Of a stretch of DNA of 12,670 nt, positions 1 through 12,670 are shown one piece after another (position 1 is the first letter of the stretch; each line of letters begins with the position of its first letter). The notes under the pieces were generated by a model. That model did not search any database. It saw nothing but the letters and a program-made list of their open reading frames with translations, and was not told the DNA's origin. This stretch comes from Sutterella parvirubra YIT 11816 (lineage in GTDB: Bacteria; Pseudomonadota; Gammaproteobacteria; Burkholderiales; Burkholderiaceae_F), in NCBI RefSeq assembly GCF_000250875.1, contig NZ_JH604860.1, positions 1 to 12,670 on the forward strand, written 5' to 3'. A program made the translations under genes and the position numbers.

Positions 1-92
1 TCCGCCGTCGAGGCTTGTCCGCGGTCTCGAAAGAACGCCGGAATCTCTTCCCGTACCGTGTGCACGCGGCTGTTCCACATCGGCGCGGCCAT
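1..92 (-). CDS. Possible start of a gene cut by the window edge (unknown)
   Basis: Beyond the stop of the AlbA_2-type gene, the same minus-strand frame stays open to position 1. The first ATG is at 92-90 and gives 30 visible residues, with stretches such as WNSRVHTVREEIPAFF. The composition looks like real protein: mixed charges, aromatic residues and GC-rich third positions. A weak GGGA sits just before the ATG. I recognise no family. It could be a new downstream gene, or the C-terminal remainder of the upstream gene cut off by its TAA at 131-129. Only about 90 bases are visible, so this is a tentative call. Confidence 0.25.
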   Translation of the reverse strand, partial: MAAPMWNSRVHTVREEIPAFFRDRGQASTA

Positions 93-128
93 CACATCCC
101 GAACGTACGGTTCGAAGTCGCCGCCGGT

Positions 129-1652
129 TTAAACCGCCCAAATCGTCGCGCCCGGCCCGGACGGGGTTTCGGGAAGCCGCCCTTGGAGCCCCCGGATGCC
201 GTAGTTGGGATCGGCGGGATCGCCGCTCACCGTGACGACGTCGTCCGCTTCGAGCTGGCCGAGCTCCATCCGGATGCGCTCCCGAGCGATCGACGAAGGC
301 AGCGTCCCGACGATTTGGTCGAGCGTCGGCGCAACGCGCTCCGCGCGGATGGCGGCGAGGATCATCATGCCGACGACAGAGATCCCTCTGCCCAACACCT
401 TCTCATAGCGGTTGATGATCCGGAAGAACTCAAAATCCTCCTTGTTCTTCAGGAACTCCACGATGACCTGTTCGTCGGTCGTTTGCGCGTAGTCGGCCCA
501 GAGCCGTCCGAAGCGCATGCTTTCAGACAAGATGACGTCCATGCCGCGCCCTGAGCTTTCGGCCAAGCCCGCCCGCTTCATGGCGAGCGCCAGCGCGGGA
601 TTGCGCCCCTGCGGGACGGCGTCGATCAGGTTCGACGCGGTGATTCCCTTCAGGAACCCGCCCGGGCTCGTCACCGTGAGCCGGTTCTCCCACATCCGGA
701 CCAAGACGCGCCCGGGGAGCGCGTAGCCCCTGTGGGCGAATGCGTTCACCAATGTCTCGCGGAACGCCTTCTCCGAAAAAGTCTCGATGACGAAACGCTG
801 GCCGTTGAAGACCTGCTCCAACTCCTTGTTGTGCGCCCGGAAGTGGAGCATCAGCAACTCGAACGAGGCCGCGATGGGGAGCGACATGTCGACCGACCGG
901 ATGAGCCTGGTCCCCTCAAAAACCTGGAAGGTTGCCGCGGCGGTCGGGAGCACCCGTTGAAGCGCCTCGGATTTGCCGATCATGAGGAGGCCGCAGAACG
1001 TCGGCATGAGGACCTTGTCGACGGGATCCGGCCGCACGAAACCCATCGCCTTGTCGAAATCCTCATCCGACAGATCCAGGAGCGTCTTGTCGCCGCCGGC
1101 CCTGATGGGTTCGCGCAGGCGTTCGCGCTCCACGTCGGAGAGGTCGGCGCAGGTGCGGCTCGTGACGATCCTCGTTGAAAAGTCGACGGGTTCACGGAAG
1201 GTGAGTTCCGTCGCGTACTCACCCGGGAAGACGGGACGGTTCTCAGGCATACCGTCCCGCCGGAGCCGGCGCTTCAGCACGCGCCCGTCGATGCAGGCGA
1301 CGGGGTGAAGCGACTTCGCGACCTTGATGACAACGACGGCGCACCCGCCCGGCAGAGTCTGCTTTTCCCAGCCGACCGAAACGCTCGGATGGGTCTTTTC
1401 GAAGATCACCGCCCGCGCGGCCTCGGCCTTCAACCATCGGCTTGTCGGATCGCTCAGGCCTTCAGGCGTTCCGTCGTCCGAGACGCCCAGAAAGATGAGA
1501 CCGCCGTCGGCATTCGCCATGCCCACGACCGCGTCGACGACCTTGGAGTCGAACCGGTCGTCGGAAGGGCCGTCGGAAAGGTCGGCGGAAAGGCCGTCGC
1601 GACGGTCTGAGATGAATGAGACGGTCAGGGATTCGCCAGAGGGAATGTTCAT
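129..1652 (-). CDS. AlbA_2 (Schlafen-type) and GHKL ATP-binding domain protein, predicted regulator
   Basis: The product is 507 residues, the usual size for the family often annotated as ATP-binding protein or predicted transcriptional regulator. Residues about 8-150 match the AlbA_2 (divergent AAA-4/Schlafen) domain, with the typical segment VVGMANADGGLIFLGVSDDG at 42-61. Residues about 290-375 resemble a HATPase_c_4 (GHKL) fold: ETLVNAFAHRGY with N303, then GGF at 331-333 and GLAESSGRGMD at 362-371. The tail (about 425-490) looks like a winged helix. The ATG is preceded by GGAG six bases upstream. Known relatives are thought to bind nucleic acid and ATP, and some lie in defence or stress loci; its job here is unknown. 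It lies 154 bases after the small membrane protein of the metal cluster and may be a separate unit. An acidic 4-residue repeat (residues 19-34) interrupts the start of the AlbA_2 domain. Confidence 0.85.
   Translation of the reverse strand: MNIPSGESLTVSFISDRRDGLSADLSDGPSDDRFDSKVVDAVVGMANADGGLIFLGVSDDGTPEGLSDPTSRWLKAEAARAVIFEKTHPSVSVGWEKQTLPGGCAVVVIKVAKSLHPVACIDGRVLKRRLRRDGMPENRPVFPGEYATELTFREPVDFSTRIVTSRTCADLSDVERERLREPIRAGGDKTLLDLSDEDFDKAMGFVRPDPVDKVLMPTFCGLLMIGKSEALQRVLPTAAATFQVFEGTRLIRSVDMSLPIAASFELLMLHFRAHNKELEQVFNGQRFVIETFSEKAFRETLVNAFAHRGYALPGRVLVRMWENRLTVTSPGGFLKGITASNLIDAVPQGRNPALALAMKRAGLAESSGRGMDVILSESMRFGRLWADYAQTTDEQVIVEFLKNKEDFEFFRIINRYEKVLGRGISVVGMMILAAIRAERVAPTLDQIVGTLPSSIARERIRMELGQLEADDVVTVSGDPADPNYGIRGLQGRLPETPSGPGATIWAV
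1563..1598 (-). repeat. 12-bp tandem repeat inside the AlbA_2-type gene
   Basis: Three 12-bp units follow one another in frame (GACGGCCTTTCC, GCCGACCTTTCC, GACGGCCCTTCC), then a decayed fourth. They encode DGLS, ADLS, DGPS and DDRF. The repeat lies in the loop between the first strand and the first helix of the AlbA_2 domain, where relatives are usually shorter. Copy number could vary between strains without shifting the frame. Confidence 0.7.
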
Positions 1653-1743
1653 GAGGGGCTCCAGGGGTGCGATGCCCCATCATGCCCCATTCATCTTCAT
1701 CGATCAATCCGACGAATGACGAACCACGACGCATGCCGAAGCG

Positions 1744-1779
1744 AACACCCCACCCATCGACGTGAATGGCTGAGGGGTG
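1744..1779 (-). terminator. Stem-loop after the small membrane protein gene
   Basis: CACCCC (1746-1751) pairs with GGGGTG (1774-1779), and inside it CCAT (1754-1757) pairs with ATGG (1766-1769). It lies between the stop at 1807 and the start at 1652. No T-run follows on the minus strand, so it is not a classical intrinsic terminator. It may be a 3' end stabiliser or a Rho-associated end. Confidence 0.35.
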
Positions 1780-1806
1780 CTCCTGAGCGCCTGCCGGAGC
1801 GGGCAG

Positions 1807-2172
1807 TCAGGCCTTCGGCCCCCTCGCCGGAGCTTCGGCGCTCTCTTCGGCCTCCACGACCTGCGCCTTCCCCGCAGCCTCCCCGGGCTGAGGTTCCGCA
1901 GCCGCCTTCCCGTCCCAACGCGAGAGCACCTCGCGCATGAGGCCACCGGCGTCCTCCACCATCTTCACAATGGCGGCGACCCAGCCGTCGACCATCCCCC
2001 GGGCGGTCTTCAGGAAGGCCTTGGTGTCCTCGGGCGACGCCGCCCAGGCCGCAAAGAGCGCGATGACGCCCAAAAGCGCCATCCCGAGGGCGAGCGAGAG
2101 CGCGAAGAGAAAGAGCGCGGCGGCCAAAAGCCCCGCGGCGACGAGCGCAAAGGTTCGGATCGTTTGATTCAT
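1807..2172 (-). CDS. Small membrane protein with acidic Ala/Glu/Pro tail (last gene of the metal cluster)
   Basis: The product is 121 residues. Residues about 6-46 are a long hydrophobic stretch, probably a helical hairpin or two closely spaced membrane segments. An amphipathic part follows (about 47-86), then an Ala/Glu/Pro-rich low-complexity tail (about 89-121). No catalytic motif is visible. GGGAGG lies about 11 bases before the ATG, a usable but long spacing. It follows the HMA_2-like gene after a 146-base gap with a perfect stem-loop. I do not recognise a named family. By position and build it may be an accessory membrane protein of the ATPase system; fez operons are reported to carry several small membrane proteins of this general kind. 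That role is inference. Confidence 0.65.
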   Translation of the reverse strand: MNQTIRTFALVAAGLLAAALFLFALSLALGMALLGVIALFAAWAASPEDTKAFLKTARGMVDGWVAAIVKMVEDAGGLMREVLSRWDGKAAAEPQPGEAAGKAQVVEAEESAEAPARGPKA

Positions 2173-2262
2173 GAGGAAAAGCGCCTCCCGGCGGGCGTTC
2201 GGTTCATCGTCTTGACCCGAAGCCTACCGCAGAAGGCGCTTCTCATGTGCCGGGCGGCGTGC

Positions 2263-2284
2263 GGCCGGAGGCTCACCTCCGGCC
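2263..2284 (-). terminator. Perfect 9-bp stem-loop between the HMA_2-like gene and the next gene
   Basis: GGCCGGAGG (2263-2271) and CCTCCGGCC (2276-2284) pair perfectly around a four-base loop. It lies 35 bases after the stop of the HMA_2-like gene. The minus strand lacks a T-run after the stem, so it may stabilise or process the mRNA, or partly terminate it, rather than end transcription fully. Confidence 0.5.
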
Positions 2285-2318
2285 CCGCTTCAGTTCACCC
2301 GTCGGAGTGTTCCCGCGC

Positions 2319-3008
2319 TCAGAGCACGCGGCGGTGCTGCAGGAGGTGCACGGCCAAAAGACCGAGGAACCCGGCGCCGAACCCGGTGTGGGCGCCCTTG
2401 GCACGGCCGGTGGCGAGCACCGCGATCGAGACGGCCAAGAGGCCCAGCATCAGGCGGTTCTGCGCGACGCGCTTCGCGCGGGCGCCCTTCGTGACGTCGG
2501 GCGCGATCACGCGGGCCAAGGCCTGAAGCGGCGCGTCCGCGACGCGTTCAAACCCCGCCTGGGCTCGGTCGAGCGCGACCTTGGCGGTGTCGACGAACTC
2601 CTGACAGCCGCAGGTGCAGGCCTTCTTCTCCGCCCCGCAACCGCAGGCGCATTCCGAACCGGCACCTTCGGCGCATGCGCCCTCGCAGGCGCAGCACTTC
2701 TCTTCGCAGGACTCGTCCTTCTCGTCGAAGTACCCCATCATGCGGGCCATCTCGAGCATCCCGGCGGCTTCTTCAGCCAAAGCCTGGGGTTCGAGCGTGA
2801 GCACCGCCGGATCCCACGTGAGGAGCAGGCTCCCGACGCGGGGGTTGACGTCGACGCCCGTGACGCCTTCCTTCGCGGTCAGCGCGTCGCGGATCATCCC
2901 GACGAATTCGTCCGACGCGCCGCGAAGGAGCGGCAGACGAAGCCGCAAGCGCCCGGGGCAAAAGCTCCTGACGCCCTGAAGAAGCGTGTCTGCGGTGATG
3001 GGTTCCAT
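2319..3008 (-). CDS. HMA_2-like membrane protein with an 11-cysteine metal-binding patch (FezC-like)
   Basis: The product is 229 residues. Residues about 10-75 look like an HMA_2-type ferredoxin-fold domain: CPGRLRLRLP at 17-26 takes the place of the CxxC metal site of classical HMA domains, and GVTGVDVNPRVGSLLLTW at 48-65 is the conserved strand-turn-strand. A hydrophilic stretch then holds 11 cysteines within 35 residues (C101, 105, 106, 108, 112, 120, 122, 124, 131, 133, 135), much like a small metallothionein. The C-terminus (about 186-223) forms one or two membrane segments. AAGGAA lies about eight bases before the ATG. It follows the P-type ATPase gene after 124 bases. Similar HMA proteins accompany P1B-6 ATPases in ferrosome loci, so I infer a metal-handling partner of the ATPase on a membrane. 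Which metal the cysteines bind cannot be read from the sequence. Confidence 0.75.
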   Translation of the reverse strand: MEPITADTLLQGVRSFCPGRLRLRLPLLRGASDEFVGMIRDALTAKEGVTGVDVNPRVGSLLLTWDPAVLTLEPQALAEEAAGMLEMARMMGYFDEKDESCEEKCCACEGACAEGAGSECACGCGAEKKACTCGCQEFVDTAKVALDRAQAGFERVADAPLQALARVIAPDVTKGARAKRVAQNRLMLGLLAVSIAVLATGRAKGAHTGFGAGFLGLLAVHLLQHRRVL

Positions 3009-3082
3009 GATTGTTCTTCCTTTTGACTGAGGTCTTCGGGACGGGCTCAGATGGGGAAAAGGGAACCCGCCTCAACGATGGG

Positions 3083-3114
3083 AAAAATGGTGAGGAAGGG
3101 GCCGCAGCCCCTTC
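3083..3114 (-). terminator. Terminator-like hairpin between the ATPase and HMA_2-like genes
   Basis: GAAGGGGC (3095-3102) and GCCCCTTC (3107-3114) form a perfect 8-bp stem with a four-base loop. On the minus strand a run of five T (3087-3083) follows after about seven bases. The distance from stem to T-run is longer than ideal, so partial termination that lowers expression of downstream genes is more likely than a full stop. Confidence 0.5.
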
Positions 3115-3132
3115 GATTATCGCGCTTCGGCG

Positions 3133-5685
3133 TCAGGCGTTCGCAAGGAGCGGGATGCCGCCGTGAGCGCCGTGACCGCCATGTCCGCCTTGTCCGGCCA
3201 GAGCGCGTCCGCGGCCGGCGTCCGCGCCCTGCGCGGCGTGGCCCCGGCCGTCTTCGGCCAAGCCCACGACGTCGCGGACCTTCTCCAACGCGTGCACCGC
3301 GTTTTCGACCGCGCGGTCGATGTCGATCCCCTTGGCGTGGGGGTCGCGCATGGCGTTCAAGCACACGCCGATCGTGGTGCCGTTGTGAAGGAGCGCGCCC
3401 AGGGCCGGCATGAGGAGACCGGTCAAGCCGCCCGCCAAGAAGACGCCGTTCAGGCCCACCGAGATCCCGAAATTCTGACGGATCCGGCGCATGGCGGCGC
3501 GGCCCAGGCGGATCGCGTCGCAGAGCTTCCTGAGGTCGTTCCCGGCCAGCACGACGTCCGCGACTTCGCGGGCGATGTCGGCGCCGTCCTTCAACGTCAC
3601 GCCCACGTCCGCGGACGAGAGCGCCGGGCTGTCGTTCACGCCGTCGCCCACCATCAGCACCTTGTGGCCGTTCGCCTTCAGGGCCGCGACCGTTTCGGCC
3701 TTCTCGTGCGGGAGGATCCCCGCGCGGAATTCCTCGATCCCGAGGCGCGCCGCCACGGCGGCCGCGGTCTTCTGGTCGTCGCCCGTCAACATCACGATGC
3801 GGCGGATGCCGAGCATGCGGAGTTCCGCAATGGTTTCGGCGGCTTCGTCGCGGATCGGGTCCTCGATCCCGAGGAGACCGATCAGGCGACCGCCCACGGC
3901 GAGGTAGAGGATCGAGAGACCGTCCTGCGCGAGCTCCTCGCGGATCCCCGTCGCAGGTGCGACGTCGACGCCTTCGTCCTCCAGAACGAAGTGGCGGGAC
4001 CCGAGGACGACGCGCATCCCGTCCACGGAACTCGCGATCCCGTGCGCGACCACGTATTCGATTTCCGTGTCGTGGGTTTCGTCGTGGTGCGCGATCCCCT
4101 GCTCGTCCGCGGCGCGCACAACGGCGCGGCCGACCGGATGGGGAAAGTGTTCTTCCAAGCACGCGGCCAAGCGGAGCACTTCGTCTTCGGGGAAGGATTC
4201 GTCGAGCGACACGACGCGCTTCAATTTGGGCGCACTCTCCGTCAACGTCCCCGTCTTGTCGAAGACGACGGTATCGACTTCGGACAAGGCTTCCAAGTAG
4301 CGGCCACCCTTCACGATCACGCCCTCGTGCGTGCCCGATTTCATGGCGGTCAGAATCGCGAGCGGCGTCGCGAGGCGCAACGCACACGAGAAGTCGACCA
4401 TGAGGACCGACGCCGCACGGTTGACGTCGCGCGTGAAGGCGTAGACCAGGCCCGCCAGGATGAAGTGCGCGGGCACGATGCGGTCGGCCCAGCGTTCGGC
4501 CTTCCCCTGGATTCCGGCCTTCGCCTTTTCGCTCTTTTCGATGAAATCGACGATCTGCGAGAGGCGCGTGCCGTCGCCCACGCCGGTGGGACGCACGTCG
4601 ATTTCACCCGCTTCCAAAACGGTCCCCGCGAAGACGGAGCCGCCCTGGCTCCTGCGCACGGGGAGCGCCTCGCCGGTCATCGAGGCCTGGTTCACTTCGC
4701 CTTCGCCCGCGAGGACGACGCCGTCCACGGGAATCGCAGAACCCGCACGCACGACGACGCGGTCGGCTTCGGTGACGTCCTTGAGCGACTTCGTCAGCAT
4801 CCGGCCGTCTTCGGCGCGCACCCAGACGGTGTCGACGCGAAGCGCCAGCTCGTCGGCGAGGCTCGCCATGCTGCGCTTCCTCGTGAAGTTCTCGAGCATT
4901 TCACCCAAGCCGAGGAGCACGACGAGAAGACCCGCCGTCTTGAAGTCGCGGCGAAAGAGCGACACGGTGAGCGCGGCGGCGTCAAGGACCGAGACGTTCA
5001 ACTTGCCTTTCAAAAGCGCCTTCACGCCTTCGGCGATGAGCGGTATGCTCCCCAGAATCGCGTTGATCTGGTTCACGCCCATCGGCAGGAAGGGACGCAG
5101 GAAGACGAAGCGCGCCAAGGGGCCGAAGTCGATCCCGTCCTGGTCGGTGGAGGACACCGGGATCGTGAGCATCCGGCCGATGAAGCTCTTGCGGCCGGCA
5201 CCGACACCCACACCAGCGGCGGCACCCGCCACCGCGGGAACGCCGGCGCCGACACCGGCACCGCGGCCGGTCGCCTTCGAGAAGACCGCATCCTTCACGC
5301 GGCGCCAAACTTCCAGAATCGGCATGTCGGCGACGAAACCCTCCACGCCCGACGCGATTTCCTTCGCGGCGGCGCAGGGACGCGCCTTCCGCGCACGGAT
5401 CTCGCCCGCGGCGCGCACCGCGGCGGCCTGCGCCGCAGCCGCGCGGTGGCGGCGTACGGGAGGTTCCGTCCGGTAGCGCTTCAGCGCGGCTTCGAGCCGC
5501 ACCCGCGCGCGCATGTCCGCGACGGTCGCGACGACGCTCCCGGTGCGCGGATTGACGGTGAGCCCCGTGACGCCCTCGATGCGCTCGAGGTCGTCCGCGA
5601 TGATCGCGGCGCTCGCGAGCGTCATGGGCACCTTGGTGCGCCAGCGCGTGCGGTTGCCGACTTCGTGAATCAGGTCAAACTGCAT
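3133..5685 (-). CDS. fezB: P1B-type heavy-metal P-type ATPase with HMA_2-like N-terminus and SCA membrane motif (FezB-like, P1B-6)
   Basis: The product is 850 residues with all P-type ATPase landmarks: actuator TGE at 337-339, phosphorylation motif DKTGT at 476-480 (D476 is phosphorylated), HP motif at 516-517, TGDD at 634-637 and GDGVND at 680-685. In the ion-path helix the usual CPC/CPx is replaced by FSCALRLATP (432-441). LLHNGT and LN (766-778) lie in the last membrane helices. The N-terminus (about 1-70) resembles an HMA_2 domain, with GNRTRWRTKVP at 10-20 and no CxxC. An Ala/Arg-rich linker and a Gly/Ala/Val tract (139-165) follow. The C-terminus is His/Gly-rich (HGGHGAHGG near 835-843). 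GAGGA lies about 12 bases before the ATG. This ATPase class with HMA_2-like neighbours is known from ferrosome (Fez) loci, where FezB loads iron into membrane vesicles. Family membership is firm; the ferrosome role is inference. A Mn or other metal exporter is the alternative. Confidence 0.9.
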   Translation of the reverse strand: MQFDLIHEVGNRTRWRTKVPMTLASAAIIADDLERIEGVTGLTVNPRTGSVVATVADMRARVRLEAALKRYRTEPPVRRHRAAAAQAAAVRAAGEIRARKARPCAAAKEIASGVEGFVADMPILEVWRRVKDAVFSKATGRGAGVGAGVPAVAGAAAGVGVGAGRKSFIGRMLTIPVSSTDQDGIDFGPLARFVFLRPFLPMGVNQINAILGSIPLIAEGVKALLKGKLNVSVLDAAALTVSLFRRDFKTAGLLVVLLGLGEMLENFTRKRSMASLADELALRVDTVWVRAEDGRMLTKSLKDVTEADRVVVRAGSAIPVDGVVLAGEGEVNQASMTGEALPVRRSQGGSVFAGTVLEAGEIDVRPTGVGDGTRLSQIVDFIEKSEKAKAGIQGKAERWADRIVPAHFILAGLVYAFTRDVNRAASVLMVDFSCALRLATPLAILTAMKSGTHEGVIVKGGRYLEALSEVDTVVFDKTGTLTESAPKLKRVVSLDESFPEDEVLRLAACLEEHFPHPVGRAVVRAADEQGIAHHDETHDTEIEYVVAHGIASSVDGMRVVLGSRHFVLEDEGVDVAPATGIREELAQDGLSILYLAVGGRLIGLLGIEDPIRDEAAETIAELRMLGIRRIVMLTGDDQKTAAAVAARLGIEEFRAGILPHEKAETVAALKANGHKVLMVGDGVNDSPALSSADVGVTLKDGADIAREVADVVLAGNDLRKLCDAIRLGRAAMRRIRQNFGISVGLNGVFLAGGLTGLLMPALGALLHNGTTIGVCLNAMRDPHAKGIDIDRAVENAVHALEKVRDVVGLAEDGRGHAAQGADAGRGRALAGQGGHGGHGAHGGIPLLANA

Positions 5686-5705
5686 GGGTGAATGAGGTCC
5701 TCGAA

Positions 5706-5745
5706 AAGCCGCGTGCCTCCCCTCTACGGGCAGGCGCCGCGGCTT
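5706..5745 (-). terminator. Attenuator-like hairpin just before the ATPase gene
   Basis: AAGCCGCG (5706-5713) pairs with CGCGGCTT (5738-5745), and inside it TGCC (5714-5717) pairs with GGCA (5729-5732). On the minus strand the stem ends directly in TTTT. It sits about 20 bases before the ATPase start, close to its ribosome binding site, so it could act as a partial terminator or limit translation. Confidence 0.5.
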
Positions 5746-5771
5746 CGGTTTCTCGGGTTCAGCGCAACATC

Positions 5772-5800
5772 GGGCCGCTCAAGCACAGCTTCAGCGGCCC
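5772..5800 (-). terminator. Strong stem-loop directly after the DUF6110-like gene
   Basis: GGGCCGCT (5772-5779) and AGCGGCCC (5793-5800) pair perfectly. Inside, AAGC (5781-5784) and GCTT (5788-5791) add four pairs around a three-base loop. It begins 25 bases after the stop codon. No T-run follows, which suggests mRNA 3' protection of the first gene or an RNase processing point. Confidence 0.5.
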
Positions 5801-5824
5801 CACGAAACGGTACGGTGCGAAGAA

Positions 5825-6127
5825 TCAGACGGCGGGCTTCGGTTCGGCTTCGGCGACGACTTCCGCTTCCGCCGCGGCCGCTTCGGCTTCCTTGGCGGCG
5901 CGGCGTTCCTGCGCCTTGACTTCCGCTTCGGCCATCACGTCGGCGAGGTCTTCACGGACGCCGTCGACGCCGGCCATGAGCTTGTCCTTCAGATCAATGC
6001 CCGACGACAGAAGGTCCGTCGCGAGGGGCTTGACGTCGAGCTTGCCGCGCGTGAGCGCCACGGCGCCCAGAGCACCCACGAGAACACCGCCCACGAAGAA
6101 GAGGCCGTACTTGGTCGTTTCGTTCAT
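5825..6127 (-). CDS. DUF6110-like small membrane protein (first gene of the metal cluster)
   Basis: The product is 100 residues from the ATG at 6127. I prefer this start because AAGGGA lies about nine bases upstream and the frame extension before it (to 6220) runs into the operator region and reads like non-coding sequence. Residues about 8-26 form one membrane helix with small-residue packing (FVGGVLVGALGAVAL). A soluble helix follows (about 30-75), then an Ala/Glu-rich, probably coiled-coil tail (about 65-96). The pattern of TKYGLFFVGGVLVGALG at the N-terminus, a DLKDK-like middle and an ERRAAKEAE tail matches what I remember of DUF6110, a family found beside P1B ATPases with HMA_2 domains. 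It is first in the cluster behind a Fur-like site. A structural or assembly role on the same membrane as the ATPase is inference. Confidence 0.75.
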   Translation of the reverse strand: MNETTKYGLFFVGGVLVGALGAVALTRGKLDVKPLATDLLSSGIDLKDKLMAGVDGVREDLADVMAEAEVKAQERRAAKEAEAAAAEAEVVAEAEPKPAV

Positions 6128-6204
6128 TTTTTTCAATCCCTTTAGAGTTCTCCCGGCGCCGTGGACCCCTGGCCCGTTCCGCCGGAAGTGAGGTCGTATT
6201 TTAT

Positions 6205-6223
6205 CGCGAATGGTTCTCATTCG
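6205..6223 (-). promoter_or_regulatory. Fur-box-like operator
   Basis: CGAATG (6207-6212) and CATTCG (6218-6223) form a perfect inverted repeat with a five-base spacer. On the minus strand, TGAGAACCATTCGCG (6219-6205) matches 11 of the 14 fixed positions of the TGAGAAT-N-ATTCTCA form of the Fur site. A TAAAAT that could serve as a -10 follows directly (minus strand, 6203-6198). The site ends about 78 bases before the DUF6110-like start codon. Iron-dependent repression of the cluster is inferred. Confidence 0.5.
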
Positions 6224-6320
6224 GTTGATTTCAGCGCGGTTTTTGGGATTAGTTCCCTTGGCGTAGAGCCGAATCGGGGAAAGGATTCGGGGCTTGCCCT
6301 AGGCCGCGCGCGCAACCATC

Positions 6321-6350
6321 ATCATACCATTTGGGGATCCTTTTCCGCAA
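6321..6350 (-). promoter_or_regulatory. Candidate sigma70 promoter upstream of the metal cluster
   Basis: On the minus strand, TTGCGG (6350-6345) and TATGAT (6326-6321) are 18 bases apart. Transcription from here would give a leader of roughly 185 bases that includes the Fur-like site. Four of six bases match the -35 consensus and five of six match the -10. It is a prediction only; a promoter overlapping the Fur-like site is an equal option. Confidence 0.35.
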
Positions 6351-6619
6351 GAAACCGACCGGAAACGGCGTGTGACGGAAGAAGTTGGCGTGAAGAAGGA
6401 GTCCGCCCACGCTTCATTCGCCGTTATTCACAAACGGAATAACGCAAAGACAACCGCAATTCGGCGGACCGTGAGGAAACCCTTCGGGAAAGGTTGGGAC
6501 TTGCGGGGTGATGCCGGACCGGGCACCGGCAGGCGACCGGCCGTCAAAAACGGTCACGATCCGGTCACTTCCCCACGTTGCCGCGAGAAGACGGGCAGGA
6601 CATCCTGCTTGAAAGAGGT

Positions 6620-7453
6620 TCAGGATCCCCGCTCGAGCATTGTCCGGACGACGGCGCAGAGCTCCGTCCGCCTCTTGAAGAGCGGATGCCGCACGTCGGC
6701 CCGGGCCATGCTCGACGGGTCGCCATGCTTCGCCGTGCGGTCGGCACCCAGCCAAACGCACGCTTCCGTGCGTGCGGCTCCGAAGGCTTCGACCAGGCGT
6801 GCGGGCGTGCTTGCCGTCCAGGCGCACCAAAGGAACGGATAGGTCGCCTTCTCGGCCGGATCTCGGAAGTCTCCCGACGCGATCTCGGGCTGTTCCGCCA
6901 ACATCCGGAGCGCCTCGCCAGAGTTTTTCGTGCGCACGTAAAAGAGATTCAGCATCCGGACAAAGGCGTTCACCGGGATCGGTTCGCCCTTCTCGGTGAA
7001 CGCGTCGACGAAGGCGGTCAAAACCCGGCCAATCGTTGCGTCCACCGTTCCTTCGACACCCCGGCCGGTTGCCTCGGACGAACCAGGGTTGAGGCCCACG
7101 ACGGCCCCGACGCACACGGGCTCAATGCCTTCGACCGGGCGGCGGAACCAGAGCTTCGTATCGAAGCGGAGCGGCACGCCGTCCTTTTCGAAATAGTCGG
7201 CGGTGGCGGCGTAGGCGAGCGGCGCTTCCGCAGTGACCGTCTTCTCTGCGGCATCGGAACCGTGGCCGGATGCCTCAAACGGGATCCGATTCAACCGGAC
7301 CGAAGCTTCGGCAAACCGCATGCAGGCCTCCTGGATCGAGAGACCAGCGGCTTCACAAACGTCCTCGAAACGACGCTTGAGGTCTTCGTCGATCTGGAAG
7401 TTGACCGTGTTTCGGTTCATGGCGTGCTCCACGGGCATGTTGTTCTCCAACAT
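6620..7453 (-). CDS. Fusion of a RelB/DinJ-like ribbon-helix-helix with a DUF1643-like domain
   Basis: The product is up to 277 residues. Residues 12-60 (NTVNFQIDEDLKRRFEDV, then GLSIQEACMRFAEASVRLNRIPFE) match the DinJ/RelB antitoxin N-terminus, which dimerises as a ribbon-helix-helix and binds DNA. Residues about 100-270 match the DUF1643 pattern: GLNPGSSEATG at 120-130, LNLFYVRT at 168-175, CAWTA at 210-214 and RHPLFK at 255-260. No RelE/YafQ toxin gene is next to it. Three ATGs are possible (7453, 7438, 7420); the second and third each have GGAG six bases upstream, and the third begins exactly at the antitoxin-like domain, so the true start may be 7420. It follows the phosphoesterase gene by 46 bases and is probably the last gene of that operon. 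The function of DUF1643 is not established to my knowledge; a DNA-targeted or regulatory role is inference. Confidence 0.8.
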   Translation of the reverse strand: MLENNMPVEHAMNRNTVNFQIDEDLKRRFEDVCEAAGLSIQEACMRFAEASVRLNRIPFEASGHGSDAAEKTVTAEAPLAYAATADYFEKDGVPLRFDTKLWFRRPVEGIEPVCVGAVVGLNPGSSEATGRGVEGTVDATIGRVLTAFVDAFTEKGEPIPVNAFVRMLNLFYVRTKNSGEALRMLAEQPEIASGDFRDPAEKATYPFLWCAWTASTPARLVEAFGAARTEACVWLGADRTAKHGDPSSMARADVRHPLFKRRTELCAVVRTMLERGS

Positions 7454-7499
7454 TCTCCTCCAACCGTGCCGCCGTCTGTTGCCGTCGACAGCCTCCGCC

Positions 7500-8330
7500 T
7501 CAGTCTTCCGGATTCACCGCCCCGGCGAACGGGAACGGCCCCGCGTAGCTCGCCTCCATGGCGAAGTGCCCGAGGAAGGTGTTCCAGGCACCCTCCCGCC
7601 ACTGATGGAGCGCCCAACCGGCGGGCTCCAGCCGGAAGCAGTCGCCCGCGCTCGCCGTGAACCCCACCGGAATCGCGAGCGCGGCGGAAGGCGCCGTCAC
7701 GACGACGTTCGCACCCGTCGTCTGCAGGATCGCACGGTGCATGTGGCCGGTCGCCAAACGCACGTCGGGGCGCGCGGCGAGGACCTTGAGGAACGCCTCG
7801 CGGTTCCCGAAATCCTCGTCCATCACGCCCATCCCGCAGGTCAGGGGCGTGTGGTGCGTGAAGACCATCGCGGGCGCAGGGTCCGAGAGTTCGTCCGCAA
7901 GCCGCTCCAGAACGGTCTCGGGGATCGCGCCCCAATGTCTGCCGGGCTGGAGCGTATCCAAAAGGAAGAGCCTGACGCCGCCCACCCGGACCGTCTGGTC
8001 CAGCCGGTCGCCGCTCCAGAAGTCGCCGAAGTACCCGGCGAGGATCCGCCGCATGGGTTCGCGCCGGTCGTGGTTCCCGGGAAGGAAGCGCACGGGGATC
8101 CCTGCGGCGTCGAAGATCGAGAAGGCATCCGCCACCTGACGGTAGGCGGTTTCGTTGCCGTCGCAGGCAATGTCCCCTGTCACGACCACGACGTCGGCGC
8201 CCACGTCCTTGGCGAGCTCCAACGCGTGTCCCGCCACGACGGGGAGCTTCCCTGCGGTGTCTTCCTGCCCGTAGGCCAAAACGCCCGCGGGTTCGACGTG
8301 AAGGTCGGAGAGCTGCAAAACGGTGCACAT
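7500..8330 (-). CDS. Cytosolic CpdA/GpdQ-type metallophosphoesterase
   Basis: The product is 276 residues, typical for class III cyclic-nucleotide/phosphodiester phosphohydrolases. The two-metal site is complete: SDLHV (D9, H11), TGD (D53), GNHD (N86, H87), FTHHTP (H159/H160) and GHMH (H196, H198). There is no signal peptide, so it acts in the cytosol. I chose the ATG at 8330 because GAGGA lies seven bases upstream; the frame continues upstream only to a TTG in poor sequence. It lies 73 bases behind the ABC ATPase gene, in the same direction. The pairing with an importer suggests that it cleaves the imported organophosphate, for example a glycerophosphodiester or phosphonate ester. cAMP or another cyclic nucleotide is the family's other common substrate and cannot be excluded. 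Confidence 0.88.
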   Translation of the reverse strand: MCTVLQLSDLHVEPAGVLAYGQEDTAGKLPVVAGHALELAKDVGADVVVVTGDIACDGNETAYRQVADAFSIFDAAGIPVRFLPGNHDRREPMRRILAGYFGDFWSGDRLDQTVRVGGVRLFLLDTLQPGRHWGAIPETVLERLADELSDPAPAMVFTHHTPLTCGMGVMDEDFGNREAFLKVLAARPDVRLATGHMHRAILQTTGANVVVTAPSAALAIPVGFTASAGDCFRLEPAGWALHQWREGAWNTFLGHFAMEASYAGPFPFAGAVNPED

Positions 8331-8381
8331 GGGGCGGTCCTCGTCGTGTGGGTTTCTGTCTCTATGGAATCGGCTCAAGTG

Positions 8382-8416
8382 TTCAGGGTTCAGGGGTCAG
8401 GCTTCAGGCTTCGGGG
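8382..8416. repeat. Heptanucleotide tandem repeat, five units
   Basis: On the plus strand the units read TTCAGGG, TTCAGGG, GTCAGGC, TTCAGGC and TTCGGGG. They fill part of the gap between the ATPase and phosphoesterase genes and run over the ATPase stop codon at 8404, so the last residues of that protein (RPEA) lie in the repeat. No function is known from the sequence. Confidence 0.75.
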
Positions 8417-9513
8417 CGCGCGAAGACCAGCATGTCCCCGGGCTCGACGATGAGCTTCATCTTCGCGCCGGAGACGACCGACGCGTCCGCCTCGGGGAGG
8501 TTCACCTTGACGAGCCCGCCCGTCGCGGTGACGGCGGTCACGCGCACGAAGTTCCCCATGAAGTGGACGTCCTTCACCGTCACCTCCGGTCCCGCCGCAT
8601 CCGCGGCGGACGACAAACGCGCGTCGTCCGGGCGGAAGTAGAGTTCGGCGTTGTGCTCTTCGCCCTGCCCGCTCCGCCGGGTTTGAGCGGCCTCCGCGCG
8701 TTCGCGGTTGATGCTGGTGAGCGAAGAAACCGGCGTCGTCGTCCCGAGCCAATTGAGGGCACCCTCCGCCACCCGCGCGCGGATCTTGTTGGAGCCGCCG
8801 ACGAACCCCGCCACGAAGCCCGTCGCGGGCGACTGCCAGACTTCCGTCGGGGACGCGGCCTGATGGATGCGGCCGCCCTCCATCACGACGATCTGGTCGC
8901 CCAGCACCATCGCCTCGTCCTGGTCGTGCGTCACGATCACGGCGGTGATGCCGAGCTCTTTGAGGATCACGGCCAGCTCCTCGCGGACCTTGTGGCGGAT
9001 CTGGGCGTCCAAGGCCGAAAGCGGTTCGTCGAGAAGGAGGATCTTCGGCTTGATGGCGAGCGCGCGGGCCAACGCCACGCGCTGACGCTGCCCGCCTGAG
9101 AGCGCGAGGACGTTCCGGTCCTTGTACTTCTCGAGGTTCACGAGCGCCAGCATCTTGTCGACGACGCGGTTGATCTCTTCTTTGGGCGTCCCGCGCACGC
9201 GAAGCCCGTAGCCGACGTTTTCCGCCACGGTCATGTGCGGGAACAGCGCGTAGGCCTGAAACATGAAGCCGATCCGGCGCTTCTCCGCCGGGACGTCCGT
9301 CATGTCTTCGCCGCCGATGATGAGTCGCCCGCCGTCGTCGGGCGTCTCCAACCCCGCGATGATGCGAAGGAGCGTCGTCTTCCCGCAGCCCGAGGGCCCG
9401 AGGAGCACCGTGCGGCAGCCGCCTTCCAAGGTGAGCGTGAAGGGTTGGAGCACCAACGTGTCGCCGTAGTGCTTGGAGATGTTCCGGAGTTCGATCGCAA
9501 CGGATTCGGTCAT
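8404..9513 (-). CDS. ABC transporter ATPase, PotA/PhnT-like
   Basis: The product is 369 residues, normal for the polyamine/iron/phosphonate importer ATPases (CUT1-like MOI family). The nucleotide-binding domain covers about 6-240: Walker A GPSGCGKT (39-46), Q-loop Q86, signature LSGGQ (138-142), Walker B ILLLDE (158-163) and switch H196. A TOBE-type C-terminal domain follows (about 243-366), interrupted by a charged segment (about 265-288) that looks like a flexible insertion. It powers the transporter from the inner face of the cytoplasmic membrane together with the two permeases encoded upstream. The gap to the preceding permease is 73 bases and contains a heptad repeat. Only a weak AGAG-type ribosome site precedes the ATG. 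Confidence 0.9.
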   Translation of the reverse strand: MTESVAIELRNISKHYGDTLVLQPFTLTLEGGCRTVLLGPSGCGKTTLLRIIAGLETPDDGGRLIIGGEDMTDVPAEKRRIGFMFQAYALFPHMTVAENVGYGLRVRGTPKEEINRVVDKMLALVNLEKYKDRNVLALSGGQRQRVALARALAIKPKILLLDEPLSALDAQIRHKVREELAVILKELGITAVIVTHDQDEAMVLGDQIVVMEGGRIHQAASPTEVWQSPATGFVAGFVGGSNKIRARVAEGALNWLGTTTPVSSLTSINRERAEAAQTRRSGQGEEHNAELYFRPDDARLSSAADAAGPEVTVKDVHFMGNFVRVTAVTATGGLVKVNLPEADASVVSGAKMKLIVEPGDMLVFARPEA

Positions 9514-9537
9514 GTCGTTCTCTGTGAATTCGGTTCA

Positions 9538-9558
9538 GTCGTCTGTCGTATGTCGTCG
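9538..9558. repeat. Heptanucleotide tandem repeat, three units
   Basis: The plus strand reads GTCGTCT, GTCGTAT and GTCGTCG in a row in the gap between the second permease and the ATPase gene. The unit length is the same as in the 8382-8416 repeat but the sequence differs. Confidence 0.6.
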
Positions 9559-9586
9559 TGCGCTGGTCATGCGGGCCGCGGAAGCC

Positions 9587-10414
9587 TTACTTGCTCCGCT
9601 TTTCCGCCATCCGGCGGCGGATCCGCTCAGGGAGGCTCTGCATGAGGGTGAGGAGCGGCACCAGAATGACGAGGAAGAGGAACGTGTACGCGCTCCCCAC
9701 TTCGAGGCGCATCGACGCGTAGGCGTCCGCCATCCCGACGGGAAGCGTGCGCGTGTCCGGGGTCTGGAGCATCCAGCTGATGTTGAATTCGCCCAGGGAG
9801 ACGGTCGTCACCATCAGCCCGCCCGCGATGATCCCCGGCATCGCCACCGGCACCACCACGCGCATGAAGGTCGTGAAGGGGGACGCCCCGAGCGTGGCCG
9901 AGGCTTCTTCGTACGCCGCGATCGGCTCGACGCGGAGCACCGCGACGACGCTTCGCACCATGAAGGGGAGACAGAACATCACGTGCCCGCACAGGATGAA
10001 GAGGTTGCTCTGGCGGAATTCGCCCCAGCCGCCCCAGATCAGAAGGATGCCGAGACCGATCGCGAGGCCCGGAATCGAGAGGGGCAGAATGAGCGCTTCT
10101 TCGAGAAGGCCCGCCCAACGGCGGCGCTCTTCGCGCACGAGCACCCAGGCGCAGGGGACGCCGATCAGGATCGTGATCACGAGCGTCCCGAACGCGATCC
10201 CGAGGCTTCGGATGATCGTGTCGCCGTAGAGCTCCAGCACCTTCGAGATCCAGTCCGTCGTCCACCCGGCCTTGGGGCCGCGGAAGGCGTTCTTCATGAA
10301 GGCCGTCAGCACCATCTGCACGACGGGCGCCAAAAGAAAGAGGAGCGTCAGGCCGGTGACGACCGCCTGCGCGATCGTGACCGGGGTCCAATGGAGTTTC
10401 TTCTTCGTCTTCAT
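9587..10414 (-). CDS. ABC transporter permease, PotC/PhnV-like
   Basis: The product is 275 residues with about six membrane helices (near 13-40, 68-93, 104-127, 137-160, 190-208 and 240-260). The cytoplasmic coupling loop has the EAA-type motif EEASATLGASPFTTFMRVVVP at 169-189, which docks onto the ATPase. The N-terminus (KTKKK) and C-terminus (RIRRRMAEKRSK) are positively charged, fitting cytoplasmic ends. The gene starts only 10 bases after the other permease gene ends, so translation is probably coupled. It forms half of the membrane channel of the importer. The permease family is clear; the transported substrate is not encoded in recognisable residues. Confidence 0.9.
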   Translation of the reverse strand: MKTKKKLHWTPVTIAQAVVTGLTLLFLLAPVVQMVLTAFMKNAFRGPKAGWTTDWISKVLELYGDTIIRSLGIAFGTLVITILIGVPCAWVLVREERRRWAGLLEEALILPLSIPGLAIGLGILLIWGGWGEFRQSNLFILCGHVMFCLPFMVRSVVAVLRVEPIAAYEEASATLGASPFTTFMRVVVPVAMPGIIAGGLMVTTVSLGEFNISWMLQTPDTRTLPVGMADAYASMRLEVGSAYTFLFLVILVPLLTLMQSLPERIRRRMAEKRSK

Positions 10415-10424
10415 GGCCTTCTCC

Positions 10425-11222
10425 TCAGACGTCGCGCGCGCTCCAGCGGCGCGCGATCAGGAGCATCACCCACGTGATCGCGCCCAGCACGACGGAGAGC
10501 ATCGAGGCGGCGGCGATGTTGGCGGAGAGCGTGAATTCGGTGTAGATCGTGATCGGGAGGACGTTGATGTCGGTGGCGAGCGTGAAGGCCGTGCCGAAGG
10601 CGCCCATCGAGGTCGCGAAGCAGATCGCGCCGGTCGAGACCAACGCGGGCGTGAGGGCGGGCAGCGTCACGTCCAAAAGGATCCGCCAGGAGCCGGCTCC
10701 CAGCGTGCGGGCGGCTTCTTCGTACATGGGGTTGATCTTTTTTGCGGCCGCCATCACGGTCGTGACGACGCGGGGGATCGAAAAGTACACGTAGCCGGCG
10801 AAGAGCCCCGCCATCCCGTAGGCGAAGACCAATTTCCCGAGTCCGGCCGACTGCGTCGCCATCCCGAGCAGGCCGTTTCGGCCGCCCAACATGATGATCA
10901 TGAAGCCCACCACGACGCCCGGAAAGGAGAGCGGGAGCGTCATCAGACTCACGACGGCGTTCCTGCCGGGGAAGTCGTTCTTTTCAAGAAAGAGCCCCGT
11001 GAAGGTTCCGAGGAGCACGCTCGCCGCGGTGACGACGACGGAGAGCACGATGGTGGAGATCATGCTCGACGCGTACCGCGGATTCGTGATGATCTCGGCG
11101 TAGAGCATGAGGCCTTCGTTGGCGGAGACCGATGCGGGCAGAAGCCGGATGATCGGAAGCACGAAGAAGGCGAGAAGCACGACCAAAGTCGGCAGGATGA
11201 ACGCTAAGGAGCCGCGTTTCAT
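10425..11222 (-). CDS. ABC transporter permease, PotB/PhnU-like
   Basis: The product is 265 residues with about six membrane helices (near 6-28, 55-80, 88-112, 130-160, 190-212 and 235-256). The EAA loop MYEEAARTLGAGSWRILLDV is at 166-185. It pairs with the next permease to form the channel, and the binding protein delivers substrate from the periplasm. Only a poor ribosome site (GAGAAC) precedes the ATG, and 217 bases separate it from the binding-protein gene. That gap contains two strong hairpins, which fits the common pattern of binding proteins being made in excess over the membrane parts. Confidence 0.9.
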   Translation of the reverse strand: MKRGSLAFILPTLVVLLAFFVLPIIRLLPASVSANEGLMLYAEIITNPRYASSMISTIVLSVVVTAASVLLGTFTGLFLEKNDFPGRNAVVSLMTLPLSFPGVVVGFMIIMLGGRNGLLGMATQSAGLGKLVFAYGMAGLFAGYVYFSIPRVVTTVMAAAKKINPMYEEAARTLGAGSWRILLDVTLPALTPALVSTGAICFATSMGAFGTAFTLATDINVLPITIYTEFTLSANIAAASMLSVVLGAITWVMLLIARRWSARDV

Positions 11223-11342
11223 GAGTTCTCAGGTTCTCGGTTGGAGGTGAACCGCAGGTCTGCTTCAAGGGCACGTGAAGATCGCCGGGGTTTCCGGAGG
11301 AATGCGTCCTCGGGACACCCCTTCGGAGCGGCGGCCTTCACG

Positions 11343-11363
11343 CCTGCGGGAGTCGTCCGCAGG
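11343..11363 (-). terminator. Hairpin in the gap after the binding-protein gene (second)
   Basis: CCTGCGG (11343-11349) and CCGCAGG (11357-11363) pair perfectly around a seven-base loop. No T-run follows on the minus strand, so it probably protects the upstream mRNA or partly limits read-through into the permease genes. Confidence 0.45.
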
Positions 11364-11369
11364 GGTGCT

Positions 11370-11401
11370 CATGCCTCCCTGCGGCGGGGCCGCCCGGCAT
11401 G
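11370..11401 (-). terminator. Hairpin in the gap after the binding-protein gene (first)
   Basis: CATGCC (11370-11375) pairs with GGCATG (11396-11401), and inside it GCGGC (11381-11385) pairs with GCCGC (11389-11393) around a three-base loop. It lies 39 bases after the binding-protein stop. Together with the neighbouring hairpin it is a likely cause of unequal expression between the binding protein and the permeases. Confidence 0.45.
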
Positions 11402-11439
11402 AAACCTCAGGCGGCCTCTTCTGCTGAATCCCGAAGGAC

Positions 11440-12480
11440 TCAGCTCTTCATCGCGAGCAGGTACGCTTCGCCGAAGGCCTGCTGGACTTCCGCCATGCGG
11501 CCGTAGTCGATGCTCCCCGCGCGGGCGTATTCCGATGCCGGCAGGAACTTCGCCGCGGCCTCCGGCGCGATCTTTTCGAGTTCGCCCACGACGGGACGCA
11601 GGAAGTTGTCGGCCCAGTGCTTCTGGCCCTTTTCCGAGAGCACGAAGTCGATCACGGCCTTGCCGTTTTCCATGTGCGGGGCGTTCTTCACCAAGCACAT
11701 CACGTAGGGCACCTGGATCGTGCCTTCCGCCGGGATCACGAACTCGATCGGCGCGCCGTCGACGTGCTTCGCGCGGTAGGCGGCGAAGTCGTAGTCGAAG
11801 AGGATGGGAATCTCGCCCGAGAGGCAGCGCGCGTAGGCGGTCTGCTTCGGGACGATCGGGCTGTTGTCGCGAAGTTTCTTGAAGTAGTCGAGCGCGGGCT
11901 GGAAGTTGTCGAGGCTCCCGCCCATCGCCTGGTTGACCGCCATCGCGCAGGCGTAGCCGACGAAGGCGGACGAAGGATCAAGGAAGCCCACGAGCCCCTC
12001 GTACTTCGGGTCAAGGAGGTCATTCCAACTCTTCGGGACGGGAAGGCCGTCGAGCGCCTCGACGTTGACCATCAGGCCGATGGTCCCCGCGTGGATCGAC
12101 ACCCAGGCGCCGTCCGGGTCCTTCAAACCGTCGGGAACGCGGTTCCAGCCTTCGCCCTTGTAGTTTTCGACGAGGCCCTGGTTCTTCGCGTTGATCGCGA
12201 AGGAGACGCCGAGGTAGCAGGCGTCCGCCACCGGGTTCTTCTGTTCGGCGAGGATCTGCGAGACGGACTGGCCGGAATTCTTGTTGTCCACCGGCACGGA
12301 GATGCCCGTTTCCTTCTTGATCAACTGCAGCATCGCGCCCCAACCGGCCCACTCCGCGGGCGCGTTGTAGACGATGGCGCGGCCGTCCGCGGCGAGCGCC
12401 GGCAGCGACACGCCGACACCGCAGGACCAAAGGGCCGCGGCGAGCGCGGACTTCGCAAATTCACGTCGAGAAATGGACAT
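11440..12480 (-). CDS. Periplasmic substrate-binding protein of the ABC importer, PhnS/AfuA-like, Tat-exported
   Basis: The product is 346 residues. The N-terminus SRREFAK (4-10) is a textbook twin-arginine (Tat) motif, followed by a hydrophobic stretch and a likely cleavage site after ALA at 28-30, so the protein is folded before export. The mature part is a two-lobed type II binding protein of the family that includes 2-aminoethylphosphonate, iron(III) and polyamine binders. No adjacent tyrosine pair, as used by FbpA-type ferric binders, is present, which argues against iron. GGAG lies ten bases before the ATG. It is the first gene of the operon and sits behind the Pho-box-like array. With a phosphoesterase in the same operon, a phosphonate or phosphodiester ligand is the best inference; the exact ligand is unknown. 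Confidence 0.88.
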   Translation of the reverse strand: MSISRREFAKSALAAALWSCGVGVSLPALAADGRAIVYNAPAEWAGWGAMLQLIKKETGISVPVDNKNSGQSVSQILAEQKNPVADACYLGVSFAINAKNQGLVENYKGEGWNRVPDGLKDPDGAWVSIHAGTIGLMVNVEALDGLPVPKSWNDLLDPKYEGLVGFLDPSSAFVGYACAMAVNQAMGGSLDNFQPALDYFKKLRDNSPIVPKQTAYARCLSGEIPILFDYDFAAYRAKHVDGAPIEFVIPAEGTIQVPYVMCLVKNAPHMENGKAVIDFVLSEKGQKHWADNFLRPVVGELEKIAPEAAAKFLPASEYARAGSIDYGRMAEVQQAFGEAYLLAMKS

Positions 12481-12585
12481 GGAATCGTTTCTCCAGATGG
12501 GGGATGGTGGTCTGCACGAAAGACGACGGGGGGAAGTCTCTCCCTCGTCGGCAGTCCTACGGAGAATGGATTTTGACGTTCCTCT

Positions 12586-12625
12586 TTGACGGGAGCGTTT
12601 CGGTTTTGTGACGATTCTATGACGC
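12586..12625 (-). promoter_or_regulatory. Pho-box-like direct-repeat array upstream of the ABC operon
   Basis: On the minus strand, GCGTCAT (12625-12619) and TCGTCAC (12614-12608) are separated by AGAA, giving the 11-base period of PHO boxes; each keeps GTCA(T/C) of the CTGTCAT consensus. In the same 11-base phase follow a weak unit (CGAAA, 12602-12598) and another CGTCA (12591-12587). A possible -10, CAAAAT (12575-12570), lies 11 bases beyond, the spacing expected when PhoB replaces the -35. The array is about 105-145 bases before the first start codon. Control by PhoB is inferred. Confidence 0.45.
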
Positions 12626-12670
12626 CGACAGCCTTCTTTAATCGTGAATTTCTCTCAAACGGGTACACGT

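Follow-up and report, generated by a model that had tools for sequence, protein, structure and literature searches.

A fez-like (ferrosome) gene cluster of Sutterella parvirubra with a histidine hairpin in its FezC-like protein and a conserved fourth gene

Ferrosomes are tiny membrane-bound iron stores inside cells. We analyzed a stretch of 12,670 nucleotides from Sutterella parvirubra YIT 11816 (contig NZ_JH604860.1, positions 1 to 12,670; hereafter the window), in which an earlier note made from the sequence had proposed a ferrosome-type (fez) gene cluster. We consider it likely that the four genes of this locus are the fez operon of a Sutterellaceae-like bacterium and that they act by the mechanism proposed below; such a locus would make a membrane-bounded compartment. 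What we read from the sequence itself is the families of the genes and their order, the place of the ATPase FezB in a tree, a Fur-like site upstream of most relatives and a histidine-bearing membrane hairpin in the FezC-like protein. In every sequence feature tested the locus resembles a fez cluster, with the exception of a clear-cut test for Fur. The tests that we ran thereby favor the fez-like reading and support the interpretation of the earlier note.

The genes lie on the minus strand, from 6127 down to 1807, with all four frames open, and encode in order a DUF6110 protein (FezA), a P1B ATPase (FezB), an HMA_2-like protein (FezC) and a small membrane protein that we label MEM (M). Both the co-directional arrangement and the small membrane protein in fourth place agree with the earlier description. 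The intergenic gaps measure 139, 124 and 146 bases along the operon, and these gaps (5686–5824, 3009–3132 and 2173–2318, minus strand) fold into RNA hairpins stronger than those of shuffled sequences, with z-scores of −3.7, −2.1 and −4.1. Our main comparison set consists of 67 genomes of the family of Duodenibacillus massiliensis (Sutterellaceae), called the Duodenibacillus family below. FezB is matched in 36 of these 67 genomes; the order A-B-C is kept in all 21 loci of the family that we examined, and A-B-C-M in 18 of them. Duodenibacillus massiliensis (locus L001) also has all four genes, ordered as in the window, and an open reading frame that we judged by eye to be TnpB/transposase-like (10175–10867) separates fezC from gene 4. 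Two Sutterella ATPases at 60% identity to the window FezB are among the 120 matches listed.

FezB matches TIGR01525 at 515.7 bits (cut-off 346.25), and its fourth membrane helix reads VDFSCALRLATP, which contains the SCA motif that the earlier note had pointed out. The catalytic motifs TGE (337), DKTGT (476), HP (516) and GDGVND (680) are intact; in the FezB of Duodenibacillus massiliensis, DKTGS replaces DKTGT. An SCA motif in the fourth membrane helix is a mark of subgroup P1B-6. It occupies the place of CPC, for which we tested as the sign of P1B-1 and P1B-2 ATPases; among the relatives, the SCA motif was checked in the fetched loci. The HMA_2-like N-terminus that the earlier note had ascribed to FezB gave no match in a scan with Pfam HMA_2; the likeness survives in a profile–profile comparison, where this region aligns with the gene-3 family at a probability of 94% and a pairwise E-value of 1.4e-7. 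In the alignments, the HMA_2-like domains of both the window FezB and the window FezC lack CxxC.

To place FezB among related pumps we used a tree of 101 ATPase cores with SH-aLRT support and no bootstrap, comprising the window, 19 rows of the Duodenibacillus family, 19 of Desulfovibrionaceae (three of them CPC), six Clostridioides-type rows, 14 from other Clostridia, three methanogens, seven other SCA-type rows and 32 others. A motif filter removed the FezB of L001 (DKTGS) and that of L144 (in pieces), and L194 is likewise outside the tree. The nearest rows to the window FezB are those of the Duodenibacillus family (support 99), which join ten Desulfovibrionaceae rows in one group (support 99). 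A wider clade of 56 rows (support 100) joins this group to the Clostridia, the six Clostridioides-type rows, the methanogens and some others. CPC-type pumps fall outside this clade, so that the check suggested in the earlier note puts the window with the SCA-type pumps. The SCA branch is not purely SCA, because L029 (SCG) and L039, L059 and L075 (other motifs in the fourth helix) fall at its base. The FezB proteins of Rhodomicrobium, Rhodobacter and Hahella form a separate branch. Among experimentally studied FezB proteins, which come from D. magneticus, R. palustris, Shewanella and Clostridioides, the comparison covered the last; for the question of Shewanella, a search of 369 genomes of the class of genome G020 gave two matches, one of them G020 itself. 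At a threshold of 1e-100 the ATPase profile matches 126 of 149 Desulfovibrionaceae genomes, a figure that is not a count of FezB because the weakest matches include CPC-type pumps.

Some Desulfovibrionaceae loci show further variants of the pump. Three of them (L181, L182 and L183) have tandem P1B pumps, one of SCA type and a neighbor of CPC type (CPCATV), and L181 has a third pump with ACA. Two others, L174 (6067–9105) and L175 (6419–9379), encode a FezB of about 1000 residues that is extended by a long C-terminus; fezC comes next, and gene 4 is absent. The extra C-terminus of L174, the one scanned, matched no Pfam family at E ≤ 0.01.

The protein encoded by gene 1 passes the curated cut-off of Pfam DUF6110 (PF19605), as the DUF6110-like first protein of the earlier note would lead one to expect. 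Its coordinates assume a start at the conserved MNETTKYG; the mechanical open reading frame starts at 6220. It consists of one glycine-rich hydrophobic stretch followed by a charged tail, and is 33% identical over 70 residues (pairwise E-value 5e-8) to the FezA encoded upstream of fezB in the Clostridioides locus L167. In whole-genome searches, DUF6110 was found in 18 of the 26 genomes of the fetched loci (a set chosen by ATPase), in 24 of the 67 genomes of the Duodenibacillus family (11 above cut-off), in six of the 71 genomes that make up the L045 family (Peptostreptococcaceae) and in none of 14 control genomes. The 49 matches listed yielded 38 loci, and in all 38 a FezB relative lies within 1.5 kb of DUF6110; 30 of the 38 came from searches not chosen for FezB. 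The Pfam profile under-calls FezA, because FezB is matched in 36 of the 67 family genomes.

Gene 3 scores 26.1 bits against HMA_2 (PF19991), and we term it HMA_2-like because this is under the cut-off of 30; at E ≤ 0.1, HMA_2 is matched by 30 of the 31 members of our FezC alignment. The earlier note's description of the third protein as HMA_2-like therefore holds with that qualification and is incomplete, as the protein also bears a FezC-type histidine hairpin. Near its C-terminus two histidines are separated by 13 residues (H-x13-H), as are the two haem ligands that a single helix of cytochrome b carries. This pattern occurs in 38 of 50 HMA-type proteins (under 300 residues) of fez loci and is absent from 12; each of the 21 Duodenibacillus family loci has one such protein, and 36 of 37 database relatives of the window FezC keep the pattern. 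H207 and H221 are invariant in 31 aligned hairpin proteins from the Duodenibacillus family, Desulfovibrionaceae, a Hahella and a deltaproteobacterium, an invariance that holds among hairpin proteins because the 31 were drawn from the 38 that bear the hairpin.

The hairpin also resembles DUF4405 (PF14358). A comparison with eight DUF4405 proteins of fez-bearing genomes gave a profile match of 83.8% (E-value 8e-6) with the histidines aligned, against 0.1–2.1% in four control pairings; the eight had been picked for H-x13-H from 16 loci, which favors a match. With all 12 above-cut-off DUF4405 stretches that have a locus, the match was 70.1% (4e-5), and two controls gave 0.3 and 0.5%. These E-values are pairwise, not database-wide. 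We regard gene 3 as FezC-like, with a hairpin whose kinship to DUF4405 is seen by profile comparison only. Together with the DUF6110 protein directly upstream of fezB in Clostridioides, these FezC/DUF4405 features give the small proteins the relatives in fez loci for which the earlier note had called. The FezC of Desulfurispirillum indicum is reported to bind haem b and was modeled as a homodimer (PMC11334425).

In the AlphaFold monomer of the window FezC (mean predicted local distance difference test score, pLDDT, 83.8; predicted template modeling score, pTM, 0.52), an HMA-like fold extends to about residue 90 and is followed by a low-confidence linker, a long helix (134–168) and two further helices (175–200 and 204–224), the last of which carries both histidines. 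Eleven of the 12 cysteines of the protein fall within the linker region. The seven relatives at 89–100% identity have 9–12 cysteines and the other 30 database relatives 0–9; the next-highest count among the 31 rows of the FezC alignment is seven (L161). By these counts the 11-cysteine linker is common to close relatives only. This linker might bind metal.

Gene 4 encodes a protein that matches no Pfam family at E ≤ 0.1. Iterated profile searches of fez loci that started from it gathered 26 members: the window, 18 loci of the Duodenibacillus family and seven of Desulfovibrionaceae. Across the 67 Duodenibacillus family genomes there are 31 matches in 30 genomes, and in 29 genomes one match (29 in all) follows FezB on its strand at a distance of at most 1.7 kb, as read by hand from the coordinates. 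Of the two matches away from FezB, one is an additional copy in G038 and the other is the copy in G081, whose fezB is lost; the decayed fez locus of the latter genome (L202, G081:C95, 1472–2393) retains remnants of fezA and fezC and an open gene 4. Three A-B-C loci of the family (L160, L162 and L163) are without gene 4, and profile searches found it neither in clostridial loci nor in six rhizobial loci. Its predicted structure (mean pLDDT 84.3, pTM 0.43) has two long helices, 2–45 and 47–91, the first of which is hydrophobic over about 38 residues. From its distribution, gene 4 is a conserved partner and not an orphan, a fourth gene common to the Duodenibacillus family and part of Desulfovibrionaceae.

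The inverted repeat CGAATGgttcTCATTCG at 6207–6223 ends about 76 nucleotides upstream of the fezA start. The earlier note had read it as Fur-like; this agrees with a matrix built from relatives, and the site is weak by the Escherichia coli consensus, which we dropped as a sole test, finding it too weak for this lineage. The matrix was made from 18 relatives, with the window left out and the near-copies L152 and L158 removed beforehand. The site at 6198–6226 is the best in the window at 12.1 bits, the next non-overlapping place reaching 3.6. Of 5000 Markov-1 random sequences, 22 score as high, as does one of 159 control upstream regions (of mechanical open reading frames of at least 250 residues in the relatives' loci). 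Sites upstream of fezA in the Duodenibacillus family include AATGATAATCATTTTCAT (L160), AATGAGAATCATTATCAT (L150) and AATGAGACTCATTCTCGT (L145). Of the 18 relatives, 15 score 14.6–28.2 and three (L146, L149 and L155) 7.7–10.6, values that are inflated because the matrix was fitted on their regions; a fair comparison is given only by the scores of the window, of the other groups and of the controls. Among the Desulfovibrionaceae, six of 13 loci score 15.1–18.4. Judging from these sites, the four-gene set is probably under iron control. A scan of 1600–6700 turned up neither a terminator-like site on the minus strand nor a promoter of the sigma-70 type.

The mechanism that we propose for the operon would run as follows. 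When iron is short, Fur would leave the operator and the four membrane proteins would be made. FezA, with one helix and a tail, and the gene 4 protein could shape and pack the vesicle membrane, into which FezB would move Fe(II) from the cytosol at the expense of ATP. In a FezC homodimer, four histidines together could hold two b-type haems. By way of this dimer electrons could cross the vesicle membrane, and iron might thereby be oxidized for storage and reduced for release. The HMA_2-like domain of FezC and, in the window's lineage, the cysteine-rich linker would hold or pass on metal. Once iron returned, the vesicles would fill and act as a store.

Several observations weigh against this reading. 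The ferrosome itself, haem binding by FezC, the vesicle location and the metal are all inferred. The window FezA lies just above and FezC just below the respective Pfam cut-offs (DUF6110 and HMA_2). Single FezC proteins match DUF4405 weakly: the window protein has no match, six of the 31 aligned members match at E ≤ 0.1 with a best E-value of 0.001, and the cut-off is not reached. At E ≤ 1, DUF4405 is matched by 11 of 14 control genomes, and the weak whole-genome matches land on fezC in few cases (for example in G039 and G020). A structure search with FezC gave no match at E ≤ 0.001, the 50 entries listed being HMA-type or unrelated alpha–beta folds. As to the operator, the best match to the E. 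coli Fur consensus upstream of gene 1 is 12 of 19 positions (p = 0.087, 300 shuffles). L001, which is outside the matrix, has no Fur-like site (−3.4), seven of the 13 Desulfovibrionaceae loci score 3.5 or less, and six Clostridioides-type loci, where Fur control is reported, score 3.8–12.7 without a strong site. Ferritin-family genes, finally, are present in 62 of the 67 Duodenibacillus family genomes. We rejected the idea of the ferrosome as a ferritin replacement on this count; of the five genomes without ferritin, three have FezB and two do not.

The alternative that survives best, which we nonetheless think unlikely, involves no compartment: the ATPase would sit in the cytoplasmic membrane and, aided by its partner proteins, serve for the efflux or detoxification of Fe(II). 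P1B ATPases are usually exporters, and the sequence does not fix which membrane holds the proteins. A review table enters P1B-6 as Fe(II) (PMC7558416), which suits an iron pump of either kind. Yet for an efflux pump the control would have the wrong sign: on the presumption that Fur represses here, the operator would let the genes be switched on by iron shortage. In addition, DUF6110 and FezC proteins are the partners present in ferrosome loci.

A good deal less probable is a cluster that handles another metal (Zn, Cu or Mn) or haem, the likeness of FezA and FezC to fez proteins reflecting a shared membrane scaffold. Two papers, of 2016 and 2019, call P1B-6 unexamined or its substrate undefined (PMC4932525, PMC6884021), a point that also tells against the ferrosome reading; moreover, the HMA fold resembles copper chaperones in the structure search, and the 11-cysteine linker could bind soft metals. 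Opposed to this are the lack of CxxC in both HMA_2-like domains, a fourth membrane helix with SCA rather than CPC or SPC, and the Fur-like upstream site of most Duodenibacillus family relatives. We give very little credence to a locus that is decaying and builds no functional organelle in the strain at hand: in one relative, G081, fezB is gone together with portions of fezA and fezC, and the window operator scores below 15 of the 18 matrix relatives, but the catalytic motifs are intact, the four frames are open, and the database clusters of the window FezB and of the nearest FezC hold 118 and 52 member sequences.

If the locus is indeed a fez operon, it and its kin make the question of ferrosomes in this lineage testable in an isolated strain, Duodenibacillus massiliensis. 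Should ferrosomes form there, iron-storage organelles would belong to ordinary gut Proteobacteria and would bear on the competition for iron in the gut. The FezC hairpin offers a concrete redox model, a dimer of hairpins with two haems, and gene 4 adds a new candidate for an unexplained step, the making of the vesicle membrane. A more speculative proposal, which we hold only tentatively and think rather doubtful as a whole, is that Sutterellaceae and part of Desulfovibrionaceae build a distinct class of ferrosome. In it the gene 4 product would be a fourth core protein that sculpts the vesicle with FezA, and the FezC of the window's lineage would have gained a metallothionein-like, cysteine-rich loop between its metal domain and the dihaem hairpin; a single protein would then combine the capture of iron with its redox change and its passage through the vesicle membrane. 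Our literature search found nothing that pairs 'Sutterella' with 'ferrosome'; we do not claim a first description, because the founding ferrosome papers and their supplements lay outside that search.

The coordinates of the operon features are collected in Table 1. Around the operon, gene 4 is followed on its own strand by a gene (129–1652) for a protein with Schlafen AlbA_2 and RecG-like HATPase_c_4 domains. Upstream, at 6620–7453 (minus strand), lies a gene for a 277-residue fused antitoxin-like protein, whose N-terminus resembles the RelB antitoxin (PF04221, 30.6 bits, cut-off 22.4) and whose remaining 200 or so residues have no Pfam match at E ≤ 0.01. Beyond it, a gene for an SpdA-like phosphodiesterase (7500–8339) adjoins those of an ATP-binding cassette importer (8404–12480, minus strand) made of a binding protein, two permeases and an ATPase. 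The importer is nearest to phosphonate/polyamine/sulfate-type models, and the NCBIfam matches listed for its four proteins are all below cut-offs.

Table 1. Features of the fez-like operon, in window coordinates.
Feature	Positions	Strand	Remarks
Fur-like operator, two overlapping matches	6198..6226	.	matrix from 18 relatives (window left out)
fezA-like gene, DUF6110	5825..6127	-	100 aa; Pfam 28.5 bits vs cut-off 26
fezB-like gene, P1B-6-type ATPase with HMA_2-like N-terminus	3133..5685	-	850 aa
Codons of the SCA motif (residues 433-435), FezB membrane helix 4	4381..4389	-	
fezC-like gene, coding for an HMA_2-like domain, a Cys-rich linker and a His-bearing membrane hairpin (H207, H221)	2319..3008	-	229 aa
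Cys-rich linker of FezC (residues 101-135, 11 Cys)	2604..2708	-	
FezC membrane hairpin (residues 175-224), half-DUF4405-like, two conserved His	2337..2486	-	AlphaFold model, alignment, DUF4405 profile match
Gene 4 (MEM, label coined in this analysis), small membrane protein, two long helices	1807..2172	-	121 aa

Among known systems, a close parallel for the first two genes is Clostridioides difficile, in which fezA and fezB are described as neighbors (PMC11651100) and fezAB as repressed by Fur (PMC12574912). As there, the gene of a DUF6110 FezA immediately precedes that of an SCA ATPase whose N-terminus is HMA_2-like, and the window ATPase is 42% identical to Clostridioides FezB over 585 residues. 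Our link from L167, one of six Clostridioides-type loci, to Clostridioides runs through one protein, its FezA being 98% identical to a DUF6110 protein named [Clostridioides difficile]; one locus of the DUF6110 search lies in the same genome. Unlike the window, the six Clostridioides-type loci show A and B only, with no FezC or gene 4 match within about 3 kb of fezB. By this comparison the cytochrome-like FezC and the small hairpin membrane protein are extra, not being found beside the matching Clostridioides genes.

Desulfovibrio magneticus reportedly has three Fez proteins in a putative operon, fezABC, and the window shares this three-gene A-B-C core. The genomes of Desulfovibrionaceae that we compared hold both A-B-C and A-B-C-M, and ten of their FezB proteins are sister rows of the window group. 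The fez operon of Rhodopseudomonas palustris is given as six genes, RPA2333–2338 (PMC12016538). A rhizobial genome in our set (G407, locus L194) has six co-directional open reading frames ending in an SCA ATPase. Two of these match the FezA profile, and an HMA_2-type frame without a hairpin stands just upstream. The small proteins of L194 differ from those of the window, with no match to the FezC hairpin or gene 4 at E ≤ 0.01.

The FezC of D. magneticus has been related to DUF4405 (PMC11334425), and like these cytochromes the window FezC has a membrane hairpin with H-x13-H. The DUF4405 proteins that we examined carry two such hairpins per chain, whereas FezC carries one, to which the window protein adds an HMA_2-like domain and a cysteine-rich linker.

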